Part shown: positions 48,234 through 57,608 of the stretch, in pieces
Layout of the letters: each line of letters begins with the position of its first letter
Numbering within the stretch: the first letter of the stretch is position 1
Assembly: GCA_903847975.1 (NCBI GenBank)
Contig: CAINFC010000077.1
Coordinates: forward strand, 1 to 64,000
Length of the DNA stretch: 64,000 nt
Source of the DNA: an uncultured Acidobacteriota bacterium
GTDB lineage: Bacteria > Acidobacteriota > UBA6911 > CAINFC01
Direction of reading: 5' to 3'
The notes under the pieces: model-generated
What the model was told of the DNA's origin: nothing
Database searches by the model: none
The model's input: only the letters and a program-made list of their open reading frames with translations
Made by a program: the position numbers and the translations under genes

Positions 48234-50795
48234 TCATTTCAACCCCTTGACGAGGTGGAGCTCATCGAGCGCCTGCAGATAATTAAAGATACAACTCCGA
48301 CCGTCCGCGGAAACCAGCACGGCATGGCTTTCCTTTCCTGCAGGATCAGGGGGTATGGACTCCCAGACGAGCCGGCGCGCCCCTTTCCTGGGCTCGATCT
48401 CAAAGACCTGCATGTGAAGTTTGCCTGTGTTACAGGCGAAGATCGTACCCGCCCGGCTCAGCTGCACGATGTCCTCACCCGGCAAGAGGCCTTGGATCGG
48501 GTAGGGAGGGGAGCCGTCCAGAGAATAAATGCCGTAGCCGTCCCCCATTTCCTTCCAGAAGGAATGCCCGTTCGGTGACCGGCTCCGATCCTGCTCTTCG
48601 GCAGTAGCGGGACGCGGTTTCGTTCCCTTCAGGTCGGTGATCCAGCAGTGTGCGGATTGTGAAGGCTCGTTCCCCATAAACCAGACGGTTCGCCCGTCGG
48701 GCATCAGTCCGGCTTCCTGGATCTGAAAGCCAGGCAGGACGATTTCCGCCGGCTCCCCGGGCCCGACCGGGTAAATGAGCACGGCTGGTGGCTCCATCCG
48801 CGAAAGAATTACCCGGTCCCCGCCGGGCGAGAAGCGCGACCAGGCCTGGGTCGTCGCCAGGAGCCGGATGGGAGGGGCACCGCTGGTTTCTCTCAAATAA
48901 TGAACCTGTTCTCCTGGCGATTCCTCGCTGAAGAGGATCCACCGGCCGTCGGGGGAGAGATCGGTCACGCTGGTAAAAGAAAGCCAGGACAGGTCACGAG
49001 GGGTGGGGTCCGAAGGGCCTATGAAGAAGTTATATTGTCGTTGTTGTGAAAAGTTGACGAGGGTCCGCCCGTCCGGAGCGACATCGTACAGCCATGGCAT
49101 CAGGGGCGAGCGCATCAGGAGGCGGAGGCGTCCGTCCAGGGTTCCGGCGAAAACGCCGAACTGGTTTTCTTTGTCGAAGGTCTGGGCGGCGAACCAAACC
49201 TCGTCGCCTTTCGGGGACCAGGCCACTCCCATGAGGCTCGGGAACGGGCCGGCGATGGTTTTCAATTCGCCCTCCCTATCCACAACCTTGACGTAGCCTC
49301 CGATGGAATATTCCACGGGAGTGTCCAGAAAAACAACCCTGTTTCCGGAAGGGGAAATACGGATATTCCAAGCATAGGAGCCGGCTATCCGGGCAAGCAC
49401 TTTCCCTATCGGGTATTCCAGCCGATACCCGGTGGTTGCCTGGCGCAATATGGCTATCGCCTTCCCCCCGGGTGAAAAGTCCATGGCGCCGACCCGTTCC
49501 TGGAGGGGTCTTGGCGTCCCTCCGGAGAATGGAACCGTGGCGAGTGTGGGGACGGTAACGGCCGGCGAGTAGCCTGGCCGCAGCCTGAGAGCCAGCTCGC
49601 CGGAGGGGGAAATCCCCATGAGCGCGCAATTGGAGTACCCGAGAGACCGGGACTCGGGGCTATCGAGACGTATGCTGAAGACCTCCGGGGGTTTCCCCTC
49701 CCATCTGGCGTGGTAAACAACCGTCTGCCCATCAGGAAGGAAGCGTGCATTGCCGACCCCACCCCGGCGGAAGGTGAGGCGTTGAAAGGAGAGTTCCAAC
49801 AGCTCTTTGGAACGATACCCGGCCAGATAGGCTGCCATGGAGATTCCGAGAACAACAAGCAGCGCCGCCAGGCTCCAAAAGATCTTTCGCCCAAGGCCCT
49901 CATTCCTGGTCCTGCCGGGCGTGCCCGTTCCCGTCTTTGCAATGCCGCTGACCGAGGTGCAGGAGCGCAAGGCGAAAGCCAGATCGCTGGCCGATTGAAA
50001 GCGTTCCTGCGGGCTCTTGGCCAGACACCGTGCTGTCAGCCGGTCCATCTCCGGTGGGAGGCCCGGAACAGCGAGCGACGGCTCCGGTACCGGTTCCTTC
50101 AGGATAGCCCACAAGGTTTCTGTCGGAGTGTCTTTCTTGAAGGCCTTCTCCCCGGTCAGCAATTCGTAAAGAAGGCACCCCAAGGCGAAAATATCTGACC
50201 TGGCGTCCGTCTCCTCCCCCCGCACCTGCTCCGGGGCCATATACCCCACCGTCCCCATCACCGTTCCCGGGCTTGTTCCTCCGCGAGTGCCCGGGTCGGT
50301 TTGATCGTCTTTCATGCGGGTGTACAATTTGGCCAGGCCGAAGTCCAGGATCTTGACCTGCCCGTCCTTGCATAAGAATATGTTCTCGGGTTTCAGATCC
50401 CGATGGACAATCCCTTTTCCGTGGGCGGCCGCCAGCCCATCGGCGATGGAAGCGGTGGTCTCCACCGCTTTGCGCCAGGCGAGGCGCTCACGCCCCAGCC
50501 GTTCGCGGAGGGTCTCTCCCTCCAGGAGCTCGGTAACGACATAGGCTGTCCCGCCCTCCTTGCCGAAATCGTAAATGGAAAGGATGTTGGGATGCGAGAG
50601 GGCCGCCAGTATTTTCGCCTCTCGTTCAAACCGGGAAAGGGCATCGGCATGATCGGAGAACTCGGAGGGAAGGACCTTGATCGCGACGTCCCGGCCCAGC
50701 TTTGCATCACGAGCCCGGTACACCTCTCCCATGCCGCCGGCGCCAAGCTTGCACAGAATTTCATACGACCCCAGGCGGATACCGATTTTCAGCAT
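48234..50795 (-). CDS. Ser/Thr protein kinase fused to a TolB-like beta-propeller
   Basis: An 853-residue transmembrane kinase typical of Acidobacteriota. The Hanks kinase (1-290) has the P-loop GAGGMGEVYRA at 18-28, Lys40 in VAIKVL, catalytic HRDLKPEN, DFGLAK and MAPEQ. A TM segment (SLAALLVVLGISMAAYLAGY) follows near 315-337. The C-terminal ~500 residues form a WD40/TolB-like propeller with repeats such as ARFLPDGQTVVYHARW and FSPGGDRVILSRM, presumably an extracellular sensor or binding scaffold. ATG at 50795 fits the family's usual MxxGxRLGxYEI start; a longer frame is unlike it. Targets are unknown. Confidence 0.92.
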   Translation of the reverse strand: MLKIGIRLGSYEILCKLGAGGMGEVYRARDAKLGRDVAIKVLPSEFSDHADALSRFEREAKILAALSHPNILSIYDFGKEGGTAYVVTELLEGETLRERLGRERLAWRKAVETTASIADGLAAAHGKGIVHRDLKPENIFLCKDGQVKILDFGLAKLYTRMKDDQTDPGTRGGTSPGTVMGTVGYMAPEQVRGEETDARSDIFALGCLLYELLTGEKAFKKDTPTETLWAILKEPVPEPSLAVPGLPPEMDRLTARCLAKSPQERFQSASDLAFALRSCTSVSGIAKTGTGTPGRTRNEGLGRKIFWSLAALLVVLGISMAAYLAGYRSKELLELSFQRLTFRRGGVGNARFLPDGQTVVYHARWEGKPPEVFSIRLDSPESRSLGYSNCALMGISPSGELALRLRPGYSPAVTVPTLATVPFSGGTPRPLQERVGAMDFSPGGKAIAILRQATTGYRLEYPIGKVLARIAGSYAWNIRISPSGNRVVFLDTPVEYSIGGYVKVVDREGELKTIAGPFPSLMGVAWSPKGDEVWFAAQTFDKENQFGVFAGTLDGRLRLLMRSPLMPWLYDVAPDGRTLVNFSQQRQYNFFIGPSDPTPRDLSWLSFTSVTDLSPDGRWILFSEESPGEQVHYLRETSGAPPIRLLATTQAWSRFSPGGDRVILSRMEPPAVLIYPVGPGEPAEIVLPGFQIQEAGLMPDGRTVWFMGNEPSQSAHCWITDLKGTKPRPATAEEQDRSRSPNGHSFWKEMGDGYGIYSLDGSPPYPIQGLLPGEDIVQLSRAGTIFACNTGKLHMQVFEIEPRKGARRLVWESIPPDPAGKESHAVLVSADGRSCIFNYLQALDELHLVKGLK

Positions 50796-51368
50796 GGGAT
50801 TGTCATCCAGGTAGGCCCGAAAAGGGGAAGATTTTCCGTTCCGGATGCGTCGACCTTTGACAGGAGAATTTCGACGGCTCCAAACACCAAAGCCCACTTG
50901 CCCTCATTCTTGCTTCCGGGAAAGCACCCGGTATGGGATGGAGTGCAATTTCCACAGCACGAAAAGCGGGATTCCCATAGGAATATCATCTATTTGAACC
51001 GGGACGGACCCTCGGCGCCTCTTGCGATTTGGGTTAGTGGCTCATTTTGGAATCTCCTCAAGCCTGAGAATCATTATACGCCAACCCGTATGGCCTCCAT
51101 AATATTTATCGTGAAAAAATCAAATACCAATACAGCCTGTCCAGGCCTTACCCAGCCGTGGATTTCAAGTAAGGAAAAGAAAAACACAAATAATCCAAGG
51201 CAGGAAGAAGGATGGGGAAACCCGGCGGCAACGGAATCAATACCCTGTGTGGCCAATAGATTTTTAAAATTTGCGTGAGACTTTTTTTACAGCTCCATCC
51301 TTTTCTGATTTGTCGCAAAAGGCTCATGTCCGGCTCTTCCATCCCGATGGGACCTGTTCTGCGCCGGC

Positions 51369-51433: not shown

Positions 51434-51481
51434 CTGCGCGAATCGGCCCGCCGCTCAAAGGCGTGGCCAGGGAGGGTATCC

Positions 51482-54214
51482 TTGAAACACTTGATATTTC
51501 GTTTTCATCTGAAGCAGTGGAAATTCCGGATCCTTTCTTTGCTGCTGTCGGTCTCCTGCCTTCCGCAGCCTGCCTGGTCCGGACAGGCGGGCGCATCGCA
51601 GACCTCCGGGGAAAAGGTTGTTGCCGTCCGTGGCGGAACGGTATACACCATAACCAAAGGAATCATTCCCAACGGGACTGTCCTGATACGCAACGGCAGG
51701 TTTGTCGCGGCCGGCGCCGCACTGGAGATCCCTCCCGGGGCGGAAGTTGTGGACGCCTCCGGCAAGTTTGTCACCCCGGGCCTGGTGGATGAACACTCCC
51801 ACATCGCTTCCAGCTCCACCAACGAAGGAGGCACCACGGTCAGCTCCATGACCCGGATCCTGGATGTTCTGGATCCGGAGGACGTGGACATATATCGGGA
51901 CCTGGCCGGCGGGCTGACCACGGCCTGCGTGTTTCACGGCAGCGCCAACCCGATCGGCGGAGCCAACGCGGTCATCAAAATGCGCTGGGGTAAGAAAAAA
52001 GCCGAGGAACTGCTGATGTCCGGCGCCCTCCCCGGACTCAAGTTCGCTCTGGGCGAAAACCCGAAGGACATGCGCCAGTTCGGACAGACCGGGCCGCGGC
52101 GCTATCCGGCCAGCCGCCCGGGAGTGGAGTTCGTGATCCGCGAGGCCTTTACCCGGGCCCGCGAGTACCGGCAGGCCTGGAAAAAGTACCAGGACGCGCG
52201 GCAGGCCGGCGCCGACGTACCTCCTCCCCGCCGGGACCTGCAGCTGGAGCCGATCGCCGAGGTGCTGGAAGGAAAGCGCCTGGCCCACGTGCACGCCTAC
52301 CGCTCCGACGAAATGCTGATGATGATGCGCCTGGCGGAGGAATTCGGGTTCCGGGTAGCCACCTTCGAGCACGGACTGGAAGGCTACAAGGTCGCCCGGG
52401 AGCTGGCCGCTCACGGAGCCGGAGTCGGAACCTTTACCGACTGGTGGGGATACAAGGTGGAAGCCATCGATGCCATTCCGTACAATGCCGCCCTGATGAT
52501 GCGCAGGGGCGTACTGGTTTCCATCAACTCCGACAGTGCCGAGCACGCCCGCCGGCTCAACAGCGAAGCCGGCAAAATGGTCAAATGGGGCGGCCTTTCC
52601 GAAGCCGAAGCCCTTTCTCTGGTAACCATCCATCCGGCCAGGCAGCTGCGCATCGACCGGTATGTCGGCTCCATCGAGGCCGGCAAGGATGCCGACCTGG
52701 TGATCTGGAGCCACCCCCCCTTGAGCTCCTATGCCATCGTGGAGCGCGCCTACATCGACGGCCAGCTGTACTACGACCGCGCCGCGGACGAAAAACGGAT
52801 TGCGGCAGAGAAAAAACAGAAGGAAAGCCTGACGGCCGCGGAAAAGGCGGAAAAGGAAAAACGACCCGCCAACGCGCCGGAAGGAAGCCGCAGGGGAAAA
52901 GAAGAAACCGCCACCGCTGCCGCATTGCCGTCGGTGCCCGCCGCCACCTATGCGCCCGGAAAAAGCTCCTCCTGGTCCCTGCTGCCGAAAATGGAAAATC
53001 CCCCGGCTTCCTCGGGAATCCTGGTCCTGCAGAACGGTCGAATTTTCCCGATCTCCCGGCCGCCCATCGAAAGGGGATCGGTTCTGATCCGCCAGGGGAA
53101 AATCGAGGCCTTGGGAACGGATATCAAAATTCCCTCGGGGGCCAAAATCATCAATGCCTCGGGCCTGGAGATCTACCCGGGGTGGATCGACACCAAGACC
53201 TCCCTGGGGCTTTCCGAACCCGGACCGCGCGGCTACCAGGACAGCGCCGAGATGCTGGACTACAACCCCCAGCTGCGCACCCTGGTCGCCTACCACAACG
53301 ACAGCGAGGCGATACCCGTGGCCCGCGCCAACGGCGTGACCAGCGCCGCGATCTTCCCCAGCGGAGGCATCCTGGGCGGGCAGATCCCGGTGATGAACCT
53401 GGACGGCTGGACCTGGGAGGAGAGCGTCCTCCATCCGCTGGCCGGCCTTTCCATGCAATTCCCTTCCGTGAGCCGCGGGCGCTTCGCCTTCGGACCCCCT
53501 TCCGCCGCCGAGCGGACGTTTGAGGAATTGAAAAAGGAGAGAGACGGCAAGCTGGACCGCCTGGCCCAGCTCCTGGACCAGAGCCGCGCCTATGCCGCCC
53601 TGTCCCCGGAAACCCGAACCACCGACTGGGTGTTGGAAGCGCTCGTTCCCCTGGTGGAAAAGCGGGTGCCGCTCTTTGTGACCGCGGCTCGCGAAGCGGA
53701 TATCCGCGATGCGGTCGCTTTTGCCGACCGGGTCCGGGTGCGGATCGTGATCTGCTCCGGGCAGGAAGCCGCGCTGGCCGCACCTCTGCTGAAGGAAAAA
53801 GGAATTGCCGTTCTGCTGGGCCCCGTTCAGACCCTGCCCTCCCGGGAAGATATGTTTCATGCTTTCAGCTACCAGGCAGCCGGAGAGCTGGCGCGCCAGG
53901 GAGTCAAGTTCGCTTTCGCCACCGACGACACCACCGATGTCCGCGCCCTCCCCTTCCAGGCCGCCCAGTCGATTGCCTGGGGCCTGCGACGCGAGGACGC
54001 TTTGCGGGCCCTGACGTTGAGTTCGGCGGAAATTCTAGGTGTGGACGACCGGGTCGGCAGCCTGGAGGCGGGCAAGACCGCCAACCTGCTCGTTTCCCGG
54101 GGCGACCCCCTGGATGTCCGCACCGAGATCACCCACGTGGTGATCCGCGGGCGGCTGGTCCCCCCGGACAACAAGCACCTGAGCCTGTACGAACGGTATC
54201 GCCAACGGCCCTAG
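51482..54214 (+). CDS. exported tandem amidohydrolase-superfamily protein
   Basis: A 910-residue protein with a signal peptide (ILSLLLSVSCLPQPAWSG) and two imidazolonepropionase/dihydroorotase-like modules. The first is complete in ligands: HSH in VDEHSHIASSS, HVHAYRSDEM, FEHGLEGYK and the Asp in SINSDSAEH. A Lys/Glu/Ala-rich linker joins the second, which has the beta-sandwich (VLQNGRIFPI, LVSRGDPLDV) and an Asp in FATDDTTD, but TKT replaces the HxH. So one site should be active and the other may not bind metal. Start TTG at 51482 follows GGGAGGGTATCC. It leads a four-gene rightward operon. Confidence 0.85.
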   Translation: MKHLIFRFHLKQWKFRILSLLLSVSCLPQPAWSGQAGASQTSGEKVVAVRGGTVYTITKGIIPNGTVLIRNGRFVAAGAALEIPPGAEVVDASGKFVTPGLVDEHSHIASSSTNEGGTTVSSMTRILDVLDPEDVDIYRDLAGGLTTACVFHGSANPIGGANAVIKMRWGKKKAEELLMSGALPGLKFALGENPKDMRQFGQTGPRRYPASRPGVEFVIREAFTRAREYRQAWKKYQDARQAGADVPPPRRDLQLEPIAEVLEGKRLAHVHAYRSDEMLMMMRLAEEFGFRVATFEHGLEGYKVARELAAHGAGVGTFTDWWGYKVEAIDAIPYNAALMMRRGVLVSINSDSAEHARRLNSEAGKMVKWGGLSEAEALSLVTIHPARQLRIDRYVGSIEAGKDADLVIWSHPPLSSYAIVERAYIDGQLYYDRAADEKRIAAEKKQKESLTAAEKAEKEKRPANAPEGSRRGKEETATAAALPSVPAATYAPGKSSSWSLLPKMENPPASSGILVLQNGRIFPISRPPIERGSVLIRQGKIEALGTDIKIPSGAKIINASGLEIYPGWIDTKTSLGLSEPGPRGYQDSAEMLDYNPQLRTLVAYHNDSEAIPVARANGVTSAAIFPSGGILGGQIPVMNLDGWTWEESVLHPLAGLSMQFPSVSRGRFAFGPPSAAERTFEELKKERDGKLDRLAQLLDQSRAYAALSPETRTTDWVLEALVPLVEKRVPLFVTAAREADIRDAVAFADRVRVRIVICSGQEAALAAPLLKEKGIAVLLGPVQTLPSREDMFHAFSYQAAGELARQGVKFAFATDDTTDVRALPFQAAQSIAWGLRREDALRALTLSSAEILGVDDRVGSLEAGKTANLLVSRGDPLDVRTEITHVVIRGRLVPPDNKHLSLYERYRQRP

Positions 54215-54224
54215 GAGGAAAACC

Positions 54225-55604
54225 ATGACCCCCAAATTCTATTCCAATCGATCTCTTCTGCTGTCGTCAACTCTTCTGGCGTTATCGATGATCCCCGGCC
54301 TCCGTGGAGAAGCGCCCTACTGCTACGCGATCCAGGGCGCGCGGATCGTCCCCGTTTCCGGACCGGTACTGGAAAAAGGCACGCTGCTGATCCGGAACGG
54401 AACCGTCGAAGCCGTGGGCCCGGAAATGCCGGTCTCTGCCGATTTCGCGGTCATTGCCGGCCAGGGTCTTTCCGTCTATCCCGGAATGATCGACATGGCC
54501 GGCAGCATCAGCCTGGAAAGCCCGGCGGCCGCGGCCGCCCCGAGGGAAGCCCGAACCCGGCTGGAACTGGAGAGGAATTACCGGGAAACCATTCTGCGGC
54601 CGCAGCGGGAAGCCGCCGCCCTGATCCGGGCGGAAATGCCGGACTGGAAAAAGCTGGCGGCACTCGGCATCACCTCGCTGCTGGCGGTCCCCTCCGGCAG
54701 CGGAATCCAGGGCTGCAGTTCGCTGGTGCACACGGTCCTCCCGGAAGACCCGCCGCAGATCGGCAACCTGGCCGACGGCCGCGCCGGCCTTTTTGTGATA
54801 CAGACTCCCGTGGCGCTGCACGTCCGGTTTCCCGACAGAAACTCAAGCGGACTGTACCCTGCATCTCTGATGGGAGCCATCGCTTTTATTCGCCAGTCGT
54901 TCCTGGACGCCGGGCAGTACCGGCTGGAGCAGGAGTGGTCCCGGAAAAATCCGACCGCGCCGGGCGGCCCGGTCTACGATGCCGCCCTGGAGGCACTGAG
55001 CTCCATCCTGGCCCGGAAGCTGCCGGTGGTTTTTTCCGCCTCTTCCGCGGTGGAGATCCGGCGGGTCCTGTCCCTGGCGCGCGAGTTCGGTATCGCTCCC
55101 ACCATCCTCGGGGCCCACGGCGCGGATAAGGTGACCGAAGAGCTGAAGGAGCAGAAAATTCAGGTTCTGTTCAGCCTGAACTATCCGGTCCGTCCCAGGG
55201 ATCTGGCTCCCGATGCCGACGAATCCCTGCGGACCCTGCAGGAACGGGCGGATGCGCCCCGGGTGCCCGCAGCGCTCCACCGGGCCGGTATTTTCTTCGC
55301 TTTCGCCTCCGACGGGCTGAAGGATCCCAAGGAGTTTCTGCGCAACGCCGCCCGGGCGGTAAAAGCGGGCCTTCCCGCGGAAGCGGCTCTGAGAGCCCTC
55401 ACCCTGAATGCCGCGACGATCGCCGGAGCGGAGCGGCGGCTCGGTTCCATTGAAAAGGGGAAGATCGCCAGCCTGCTGGTGACGGAAGGCGACCTGTTCG
55501 ACGAAAAATGTAAAATCCGCCATGTCTTTATCAACGGACGACCGGTGCAGCCGGATACCGCCGAAGCTCCGGCTTCCGAGCGGCGCCGCTCTTCCATCGA
55601 ATAA
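54225..55604 (+). CDS. degenerate amidohydrolase-like protein
   Basis: A 459-residue exported protein (signal LLLSSTLLALSMIPGLRG) closest in plan to the second module of the preceding protein. It keeps the composite beta domain (YAIQGARIVPV, SLLVTEGDLF) and a late Asp (AFASDGLKD), but at the HxH position it has MAG in YPGMIDMAGSISL. It is thus a probable pseudo-enzyme or scaffold partner, or an enzyme using a different site. It starts 10 bp after the first amidohydrolase behind AGGAGGAAAACC, so the two are translated together. Confidence 0.8.
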   Translation: MTPKFYSNRSLLLSSTLLALSMIPGLRGEAPYCYAIQGARIVPVSGPVLEKGTLLIRNGTVEAVGPEMPVSADFAVIAGQGLSVYPGMIDMAGSISLESPAAAAAPREARTRLELERNYRETILRPQREAAALIRAEMPDWKKLAALGITSLLAVPSGSGIQGCSSLVHTVLPEDPPQIGNLADGRAGLFVIQTPVALHVRFPDRNSSGLYPASLMGAIAFIRQSFLDAGQYRLEQEWSRKNPTAPGGPVYDAALEALSSILARKLPVVFSASSAVEIRRVLSLAREFGIAPTILGAHGADKVTEELKEQKIQVLFSLNYPVRPRDLAPDADESLRTLQERADAPRVPAALHRAGIFFAFASDGLKDPKEFLRNAARAVKAGLPAEAALRALTLNAATIAGAERRLGSIEKGKIASLLVTEGDLFDEKCKIRHVFINGRPVQPDTAEAPASERRRSSIE

Positions 55605-55613
55605 GAGGGTCTC

Positions 55614-56483
55614 ATGCATTCAAGAAGATCGTTTCTGGAACAGCTTTTCGCGGCGGCGGCACCGGCTGCAAGTCTCGCCGGGTCGGCCGAGGGTTCCTCT
55701 CCCTGGCAGTTGGGCTGCTACACCCGGCCCTGGGCGGCCCATGACTACCGCGTGGCCCTGGACGCCATCGCCGCCGCGGGCTTCCGCCACGTCGGCCTGA
55801 TGTCGGCCAAAAACAAAAACAACCTGGTCCTTTCCGTCTCCTCCACTCCCGAGGAGGCCGCCGCCGTGGGCCAGGAGGTGAAGCAGCGGGGGCTGAAAAC
55901 GGTTTCCCTGTGGGGCGGCCAGTTTCCGCTCCAGGGGCCGGACGGGCTGAAGCGCCTGATCGACAACGCGGCGGCCTGCGGCAGCCCGCAGCTGATGATC
56001 GGCGGAACCGACGAAAAAAATCACGACGCCTACTACCGGATCGTTGCCGAGTGCTGCCCCTATGCCGAATCCCGGGGGGTCGGCATGAGCGTCAAGCCGC
56101 ACGGCGGGGCCAACGCCAGCGGCGCCCAGTGCCGCCGGATCGTGCAGCAGGTCGGCCACCGCAATTTCCGCATCTGGTACGACCCGGGGAACATTTTCTA
56201 TTATTCGGACGGCAGGCTGGACCCGGTGCAGGATGTCCCATCGGTCAAGAAGCTGGTAGTCGGTATGAGCGTGAAGGATTTCCGGCTGCCCAAAGTCGTA
56301 GACCTTACGCCCGGCACCGGCCTGGTCCATTTTGCGAAAGTCATGGCCGGCCTGAAAAAGGGCGGGTTCCGGCGCGGCCCGCTGGTGGTGGAGTGCCTGG
56401 CCCCCGGGGAGCTCGCCCAGCTCCAGGCGGAAGCGGTGAAAGCCAGGCAGTTCCTGGAAAAACTCACCGGGCAGAAAGCCTGA
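55614..56483 (+). CDS. sugar phosphate isomerase/epimerase-like TIM-barrel protein
   Basis: A 289-residue AP-endonuclease-2/xylose-isomerase-like barrel. The leader SRRSFLEQLFAAAAPAASL is Tat-like, so it may be exported. Barrel motifs include YRVALDAIAAAGFRHVGLMS, LMIGGTDEKN, SVKPHGGANA and FRIWYDPGNIFYY with the acidic metal residues of the family. It follows the amidohydrolase pair by 9 bp, behind GAGGG. The sugar or polyol substrate is not known. Confidence 0.82.
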   Translation: MHSRRSFLEQLFAAAAPAASLAGSAEGSSPWQLGCYTRPWAAHDYRVALDAIAAAGFRHVGLMSAKNKNNLVLSVSSTPEEAAAVGQEVKQRGLKTVSLWGGQFPLQGPDGLKRLIDNAAACGSPQLMIGGTDEKNHDAYYRIVAECCPYAESRGVGMSVKPHGGANASGAQCRRIVQQVGHRNFRIWYDPGNIFYYSDGRLDPVQDVPSVKKLVVGMSVKDFRLPKVVDLTPGTGLVHFAKVMAGLKKGGFRRGPLVVECLAPGELAQLQAEAVKARQFLEKLTGQKA

Positions 56484-56519: not shown

Positions 56520-57608
56520 ATGACAACCGAGCAATCCGGCAGCTGGCCCGTTTCCCTGGAAACATCGGTTTCCAAGGCTTTCATGGCCCAGGTCCTGGGC
56601 GTGAGCTTCGACCGCGATTATTATTTCGATCCGCTCCGGCGCCGGGAAATCGATGCCCGGTGCCACCGGTACGCCGGCCGGGAGCTCCGGGACCTGGATG
56701 CCTTTTTTACGGAGAGCAACCTGGGACGCAGGTCCTTTTATGCCCCCGACCAGGTTCCGGTCGGCGGAATCCAGCCCAACCTGATCCTGGGCATGCTGCT
56801 GGGCGCGGAATTCCTGCCCGCACCCCAGGGGGATGCCGATATCAGCCCGGCCTGCTGGGCCGGCAAGCCGGCCGGCCAGCTTCCCGAACCCCCTTCCCTG
56901 CTGGAACATCCGCTGATCGGCCTTTTTGACCGCCAGATCGATTTCGTGAGGCAGCAGGAACGGCAGGTCCCGATCCCTCCTTTCTTCTGGGACGGGTCGG
57001 GCCGGGCCGCCGTCCACGGGGCGCTGACCACCGCCCAGAAGTTCCTCGGGGAGCAGGTCTTTCTGGACCTGGCGACCGATCCGGAGCGCGTCCGGCAAGC
57101 CATGGACTGGATCACCGAAGCCAATATCGTCCTGGTGCGCCATTTCGCGGAGCGCTGCGGCATCCGCTTGCAGGAAATTCATGTCGGAGAGTGCTCCTCC
57201 TGCATGGTGGGCGGACCGGCCTGGGAAGAGTTCGTGGTCCCCACGCTGAGCCGCATGGCGACGGAAATGGGACCAGTCCGGCTGCACTCCTGCGGGCGCA
57301 GCCGCCATCTTCTGCCGGCGTTTCGTCAGGTCCCCGGGCTGTGCAGCCTCGATCTGGGGGACGAGGCCTGCCTGCCGGGAGTCCGGCAGCTTTGGGGGGC
57401 CGGTTTTCCGGTCAGCCTGGCACCCCCGGTCAAGCTGCTGTCCGGCGGCAGCCTTCCGGACTGGATCGACTGGACGGAGCGGGTGCTGAAAGACAACGGA
57501 GGCGGCTGCCTGACCATCCTGTATCACCTGGAGCCCCCATATCCGCTGGAGACGCTGCGCGCCTGGAGGACCTGGCTGGAACAGAGGCTCGCCCGGGTGC
57601 TGGCCTGA
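56520..57608 (+). CDS. URO-D-like (MtaA/CmuA-type) protein
   Basis: A 362-residue protein of the uroporphyrinogen decarboxylase superfamily. Late motifs HVGECSSCMVGGPAWEEFVV and RLHSCGRSRHLL (His-x-Cys-Gly) match the Zn-binding Cys/His of the MtaA/CmuA methyltransferase branch rather than HemE, whose arginine motif is absent. No corrinoid protein is adjacent. ATG at 56520 follows GGAGGAACAAG. As the last gene of the operon it may act in demethylation or another one-carbon step on the same substrate, which is inference. Confidence 0.78.
   Translation: MTTEQSGSWPVSLETSVSKAFMAQVLGVSFDRDYYFDPLRRREIDARCHRYAGRELRDLDAFFTESNLGRRSFYAPDQVPVGGIQPNLILGMLLGAEFLPAPQGDADISPACWAGKPAGQLPEPPSLLEHPLIGLFDRQIDFVRQQERQVPIPPFFWDGSGRAAVHGALTTAQKFLGEQVFLDLATDPERVRQAMDWITEANIVLVRHFAERCGIRLQEIHVGECSSCMVGGPAWEEFVVPTLSRMATEMGPVRLHSCGRSRHLLPAFRQVPGLCSLDLGDEACLPGVRQLWGAGFPVSLAPPVKLLSGGSLPDWIDWTERVLKDNGGGCLTILYHLEPPYPLETLRAWRTWLEQRLARVLA

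Follow-up and report, generated by a model that had tools for sequence, protein, structure and literature searches.

Why would a hydrolase system keep module copies that have lost their metal site? This question is raised by a window of 64,000 nucleotides (the whole stretch of DNA analysed here) from contig CAINFC010000077.1 of an uncultured Acidobacteriota bacterium. The window carries two neighbouring open reading frames (ORFs) on the plus strand, one of 910 aa (51482-54214) and, 10 nt on, one of 459 aa (54225-55604). The first encodes two fused amidohydrolase modules, M1 and M2, and the second encodes a free module, FR. The metal ligands are complete in M1, and one of six remains in each of M2 and FR. 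As discussed below, the three modules are probably subunits of a single exported amidohydrolase, a hetero-oligomer that has one metal site and two pseudoenzymes. The features of the two genes are as follows.

51469-51475, plus strand: Shine-Dalgarno-like AGGGAGG, 6 nt upstream of the TTG start (read from the sequence)
51482-54214, plus strand: fusion gene for M1 and M2, 910 aa, starting with TTG and ending with TAG at 54212-54214 (Pfam PF01979/PF07969; AlphaFold2 model)
51482-51586, plus strand: signal-peptide-like N-terminus, residues 1-35 (by eye; residues 1-41 are below 50 in predicted local distance difference test, pLDDT, in the AlphaFold2 model)
51611-52801, plus strand: module M1, approximately residues 44-440, catalytic type (Pfam, match to 3ooq, ligand alignment)
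51794-51802, plus strand: M1 HxH, H105 and H107 (ligand alignment)
52040-52042, plus strand: M1 K187 (ligand alignment)
52292-52294, plus strand: M1 H271 within HVHAYRSDEM (ligand alignment)
52370-52372, plus strand: M1 H297 within EHGLEGY (ligand alignment)
52532-52534, plus strand: M1 D351 within SDS (ligand alignment)
53012-54211, plus strand: module M2, approximately residues 511-910, putative pseudoenzyme (ligand alignment; model residues 512-897 match 3ooq)
53195-53203, plus strand: HxH place of M2, K572-T573-S574 (ligand alignment)
54213-54218, plus strand: Shine-Dalgarno AGGAGG, 6 nt upstream of the FR ATG and overlapping the M1-M2 stop codon (read from the sequence)
54225-55604, plus strand: FR gene, 459 aa, free putative pseudo-module with its own signal-like start (ORF, Pfam, match to 3ooq, ligand alignment)
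54498-54506, plus strand: HxH place of FR, A92-G93-S94 (ligand alignment)

Metal ligands in the three modules

Both proteins are members of the amidohydrolase superfamily fold by the curated Pfam cut-offs for Amidohydro_1 and Amidohydro_3. The 910-aa protein scores 108.9 bits against a cut-off of 25 and 96.2 against 29.7, with matches in both halves (best stretches, residues 96-420 and 747-893), and FR scores 53 bits against 25 and 33.5 against 29.7. A name from NCBIfam was rejected, as the top match among the best 25 of 72 and 35 families, the Xaa-Pro dipeptidase equivalog NF051886, has a cut-off of 500 bits and scored far below it (101.2 bits for the 910-aa protein and 43 bits for FR).

By alignment, M1 has the ligand set of a metal-dependent catalytic amidohydrolase, and M2 and FR lack it. 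It was found that all six ligands are present in M1 (H105, H107, K187, H271, H297, and D351), which agrees with the original prediction of an intact module 1 with HSH, HVHAYRSDEM, and a final Asp. K187 is presumably the bridging, carboxylated Lys of the superfamily. The corresponding residues of M2 are K572/S574, S657, T734, S759, and D815, and those of FR are A92/S94, H199, S271, G296, and D363; only D815 and D363 are kept. M2 and FR had already been described as ligand-poor, with TKT and MAG, respectively, at the HxH place. These two motifs are off by one residue, since the ungapped alignment gives K572-T573-S574 and A92-G93-S94, and the ligand-poor conclusion is unchanged by this correction.

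Is the pattern accidental? I assigned modules in 121 loci (L001, L041-L081, and L150-L228; the shorter loci L012-L040 and L089-L149, with L146, were left out) with three profile models and aligned them together, dropping fragments below 100 bits in L042 (one), L069 (two), and L170 (one). The six ligands are complete in 105 of the 106 complete M1 modules (seven incomplete ones were set aside), and the Lys place is occupied by Lys in 111 of 113 rows, with two gaps. The sole ligand-deficient complete M1 belongs to the L175 array. Among 117 M2 modules, 89 keep no ligand, 23 keep one, four keep two, and one keeps three. Among 69 complete FR modules (eight incomplete ones were set aside), the numbers keeping zero, one, and two are 52, 11, and 6. 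Thus, zero or one ligand remains in 112/117 M2 and 63/69 complete FR modules, and all five single-module relatives have six. The counts over 121 loci place the ligand pattern beyond chance. The rows are not independent (for example, G005 contributes two loci, and L214 and L215 are nearly identical).

The replacements were also compared. Gly at the place of the sixth-strand His is common to both ligand-poor modules (93/117 M2 and 66/77 FR), and the other former ligand positions vary widely. In FR, the Lys place is His in 40 of 77 rows and the last place is Asp in 13 of 77; the window FR has both.

Distribution, gene organisation, and history of the modules

When the genome collection was queried with the 910-aa protein, 41 loci were found. 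In the phylum of the window, 40 of 89 genomes have a match (completeness of at least 95%, E 1e-15). The corresponding numbers are 32 of 41 for the phylum of G064, the source of the Gemmatimonadota metagenome-assembled genome (MAG) locus L069, and 8 of 41 for that of G066, the source of the Fimbriimonadales locus L071. These survey counts include the seed genomes, and the matches include two-module systems. All three modules occur in records titled Acidobacteria, Candidatus Eisenbacteria, candidate division GN15, Candidatus Marinimicrobia, Armatimonadetes, and Gemmatimonadota, although some MAG titles (Cyanobacteria, Acidimicrobiia) may be wrong. The modules are thus a conserved set across several phyla, and their ligand pattern is not a product of local decay. 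A two-module version is found in Alphaproteobacteria (Qipengyuania and Novosphingobium), and relatives with one module and no second one within about 4 kb are found in Acetoanaerobium, Cytobacillus, Monoglobus, and Nonomuraea. The named annotations of the copies found are plain amidohydrolase.

The modules are arranged in diverse ways. After removal of the fragments in L042, L069, and L170 and of one FR piece in L155, the 121 loci comprise separate M1 and M2 genes (30), an FR-M1 fusion with a separate M2 (25), an M1-M2 fusion with a separate FR as in the window (19), three separate genes (17), M2 only (10), an M1-M2 fusion with FR as a separate gene in the order FR, M1-M2 (6), and a single FR-M1-M2 ORF (5). 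FR-M1 only, M1 only, and M2 with a separate FR were found twice each. An M1-M2 fusion without FR, a pair of M1 genes, and a six-module array were found once each. The M1 tree, in which 95 of the 121 loci carry a label, requires at least 11 switches between fusion states; loci without M1, those whose M1 scores below 450 bits, and eleven that are truncated or odd were omitted. Possible 4-nt overlaps of start and stop codons were found at 46 of 73 junctions from M1 to M2, 14 of 23 from FR to M1, and 6 of 21 from M2 to FR.

Where are the partners of an isolated M2? Four whole genomes with M2-only loci were searched (L070, titled Armatimonadetes, and L071, L076, and L078, titled Fimbriimonadales). 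Three of these Armatimonadota genomes encode an FR-M1 fusion of 1100-1141 aa far from M2, and the fourth, G068, has its M2 plus one short match. In G070, which has the M1-M2 locus without FR (L161), another contig matches the M2 region at 31% identity, as FR does. The presence of the set in several phyla and its fusion in differing combinations suggest that the dead copies may be standing partners of the working one.

Two odd loci were also noted. L175 (G043:C4:8900-21000) is the six-module amidohydrolase array and includes an M1-type module without ligands. In L082, on a Hymenobacter volaticus plasmid, the trio genes are split into several short ORFs, owing to decay or to sequencing errors.

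How did the three modules arise? In a tree of 55 modules rooted on five single-module enzymes, M1 forms one clade (100/100) and M2 plus FR form another (100/99). FR is a single clade (100/100) inside the latter, adjoining the trio-type M2 (96/90), and the M2 modules of two-module systems lie at the base of the pseudo-module clade with weak support (82/48 and 85/44). Trees constrained to join M1 with FR or M1 with M2 were rejected by approximately unbiased (AU) tests (p-AU 0.0035 and 0.0033, respectively), so that either sister relationship is ruled out, with the caveat that long branches could bias the model. Since M2 and FR group together to the exclusion of M1, metal binding was most likely lost once, the pseudo-module being duplicated afterwards and M1 fused with M2 later. 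The simplest order would be a single catalytic enzyme, its duplication into a metal-binding and a metal-free copy, a second duplication of the latter, and later fusions. The original prediction had read the gene order as a duplication followed by loss of metal binding in the partner and had proposed a phylogeny of the three modules as a check. This phylogeny corrects that reading, as the order of the genes is no record of their history: M1 split from the pseudo-modules before the fusion, M2 groups with FR, and the state of fusion has changed many times. In an earlier quick tree, L035 was poorly placed, and one L031 module labelled M1, which has lost its ligands, fell inside the pseudo-module clade.

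The pseudo-modules are maintained by purifying selection in the pairs examined and are not decaying. Among the 25 pairs listed of 188, the ratio of nonsynonymous to synonymous substitution rates (dN/dS) is always below 1. For M1, M2, and FR, it is 0.041, 0.057, and 0.077 in L056-L057 (the first listed pair with all three), 0.133, 0.126, and 0.101 in L198-L201, and 0.240, 0.195, and 0.207 in L199-L200. Besides many Gly and Pro residues, E579, D587, E590, and R615 of M2 and Q224, D228, and R280 of FR are kept at 94-100% in trio loci. These residues may mark interfaces or another site.

A putative hetero-oligomer and its alternatives

The best solved relative by sequence is 3ooq, an amidohydrolase of Thermotoga maritima, for M1 (E 3.9e-61), M2 (4e-43), and FR (2.7e-20) alike. 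M1 shares GSANPxGG, GENPK, and EHGxExYK with it, and the window M2 model matches its fold (Z score of 47.2, root-mean-square deviation of 2.5 over 363 residues). In contrast to the set described here, 3ooq has one metal-binding module, and the entry has 10 chains of one sequence. A literature search by the code 3ooq found no paper in open PubMed Central (PMC). AlphaFold2 modelled the 910-aa protein as a single chain from 34 aligned sequences with a mean pLDDT of 82.9 (132 residues below 50) and a predicted template modelling score (pTM) of 0.83; so high a pTM in a chain of two modules suggests that M1 and M2 are placed confidently relative to each other. In a model of the FR-M1 fusion of L063, the M1 part matches 3ooq (Z 42.0) and the FR part matches the allantoinase 3hm7 (Z 22.8). 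Thus, M1, M2, and FR are 3ooq-like amidohydrolases by sequence matches over nearly their full length, and the window M2 and the L063 M1 are also so by fold. A beta-rich stretch of about 100 residues (approximately 453-550), holding no Pfam best stretch, lies between FR and M1 in the L063 fusion model.

The original prediction had envisaged export of all modules, and signal-peptide-like starts are seen by eye on both window proteins. Among genes that are not cut off, a crude signal test was passed by 39/44 solo FR, 63/83 solo M2, 34/52 solo M1, 18/21 M1-M2, 22/26 FR-M1, and 4/5 FR-M1-M2 proteins.

It is therefore worth asking what the three modules would do together. They would be three subunits, in two chains in the window, of one exported hetero-oligomer, in which M1 would hold the sole metal site and perform the chemistry. 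M2 and FR would be pseudoenzymes with a TIM barrel, both descended from a single metal-free copy of an ancestral 3ooq-like enzyme. They may take the places of sister subunits in a putative homo-oligomeric ancestor, and may act on the M1 active site and its substrate entrance by shaping, gating, or stabilising them. The recurrent fusions, the co-occurrence, and the confident M1-M2 model indirectly support the originally predicted single complex with one active site; the physical association and any need for the pseudo-modules are inferred.

Several results weigh against this interpretation. Many loci (30 of 121) are two-module systems with no FR in the neighbourhood, and three M1 lineages adjoining the trio clade (L079, L173, and L187) likewise have none nearby; therefore, FR is not always needed. 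The crude signal test fails for 18 of 52 solo M1, 20 of 83 solo M2, and 5 of 44 solo FR proteins, and thus export may not be universal. The dN/dS of FR reaches 0.56, the highest value, in a divergent pair. The L063 fusion model is less certain (pLDDT 80.1, pTM 0.74); just one of its five models is at pLDDT 80, and the other four range from 72.6 to 75.8. The conserved charged and polar residues of M2 and FR could serve some other site. As to the substrate considered below, the numbers given for peptidase neighbours are raw counts.

Three other explanations were weighed. M2 and FR might be exported binding or scaffold proteins (for solute binding, adhesion, or signalling) that are co-transcribed with M1 and act outside the enzyme. 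CRMPs are metal-free relatives of amidohydrolases with non-enzymatic roles, and the FR part of the L063 model matches, among other structures, that of CRMP-2 (2gse, Z 21.0); moreover, FR occurs as a separate gene that has a signal-like start of its own, and M2 can be unlinked. However, the in-frame fusions to M1 have occurred repeatedly and on either side of it, and the M1-M2 model is confident, so that this role outside the enzyme is unlikely. It is somewhat less probable still that M2, FR, or both have a different catalytic site, either metal-free or mononuclear around H199 and D363 of FR. The His and Asp frequencies of FR given above and the invariant polar residues of both modules would fit such a site, but the former ligand positions, except for the Gly at the sixth-strand His place, vary too widely to favour it.

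Could M2 and FR simply be degenerating copies from a recent duplication? Their ligand loss, and the gene order as it was first read, would allow this. The same losses across several phyla, the dN/dS values below 1, and the deep split from M1 all speak against it, and this explanation, which has hardly any probability left, was rejected. The hetero-oligomer with one working and two dead modules is preferred here.

The principle of a pseudoenzyme partner is already established. PMC5810440 describes the metalloprotease TldD/TldE as a paralogous pair with the ligands in one subunit and both subunits needed for activity. M16 peptidases and the mitochondrial processing peptidase are built from two homologous halves or paralogous subunits; in M16, one half typically has the active-site residues, and both halves are essential (PMC12731061 and PMC2597178). 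In the aspartate transcarbamoylase-pseudo-dihydroorotase of Pseudomonas aeruginosa (PMC7053772), a dihydroorotase homologue that is itself inactive is indispensable as a subunit; what it supports is the transcarbamoylase, and not an active paralogue from its family. The set described here resembles TldD/TldE in that only one paralogue has the metal ligands, and differs in its fold and in having three subunits instead of two. It resembles the M16 enzymes in its homologous parts and differs by the third module. TldD/TldE is cytosolic, and the M16 fold is unlike that of amidohydrolases. Searches of open PMC papers brought up none that deals with tandem or metal-free amidohydrolase modules such as these, or with a three-paralogue amidohydrolase version with living intermediates. 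If the proposed complex is real, two of its three modules are pseudoenzymes kept across phyla, and the label of hydrolase is wrong for both. Single-gene assays of M1 may then fail without the partners. The surviving single-, two-, and three-module states would make the stepwise origin of a pseudoenzyme-dependent complex directly testable.

Substrate and neighbouring genes

What does the enzyme act on? The window M1 model matches, among others, 3feq (Z 26.6, one match per entry), and the known structures matching M1 include prolidase-, isoaspartyl-dipeptidase-, and Lys/Arg-carboxypeptidase-type enzymes. No conserved gene context across the family was found in the flanks of the 121 loci, and no peptidase gene lies directly beside the set in the window. 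As raw counts, a cluster holding an S9 peptidase was found in the flanks of 10 of 121 loci (nine on the same strand), one holding an M15 peptidase near 4 of 121 (two on the same strand), and one holding M16 peptidases at 7 of 121; the Pfam analysis covered a single member of the S9 cluster, a single member of the M15 cluster, and six of the M16 cluster. The Qipengyuania pair comes after a peptide transporter gene. Peptides or dipeptides are tentatively favoured as the substrate because of the structural neighbours of M1, this transporter, and the peptidase neighbours found, as raw counts, in a minority of loci.

In five loci of the G064 survey (L204, L208, L212, L213, and L216), two M16 genes lie upstream of the two-module set on the same strand, directly before it except in L208, where they lie within about 1 kb of it. 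HxxEH is present in the first gene and not in the second in all five. L217 has only a 242-aa ORF of the M16 cluster without HxxEH (outside the Pfam run), and L219 has a single gene with HxxEH. A two-module set right behind an active and inactive M16 pair would amount, in some genomes, to a periplasmic peptide-degrading line of enzymes each paired with a dead sibling. The broader picture, in which a widespread trio hetero-oligomer gained its pseudo-subunits stepwise, from a single enzyme to an active and pseudo pair and then to the trio, together with such an M16-linked line, is conceivable but falls somewhat short of an even chance. Of the five M16 proteins without HxxEH, all but that of L208 also have a DUF3108 match behind the M16 domains.

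A few other genes surround the set in the window. At 55614-56483 on the plus strand, 9 nt past the FR stop codon, lies a gene for a xylose-isomerase-like TIM barrel (PF01261) with an N-terminus, SRRSFLEQL, resembling a twin-arginine translocation signal. It is probably on the same transcript as FR, and its product would be exported by a different route. A 362-aa ORF (56520-57608, plus strand) comes close behind; Pfam at E 1e-5 gives no family for it. Upstream of the set, on the opposite strand, a protein kinase gene (48234-50897, minus strand) encodes 887 residues, with the kinase domain at residues 45-301 and a long tail.

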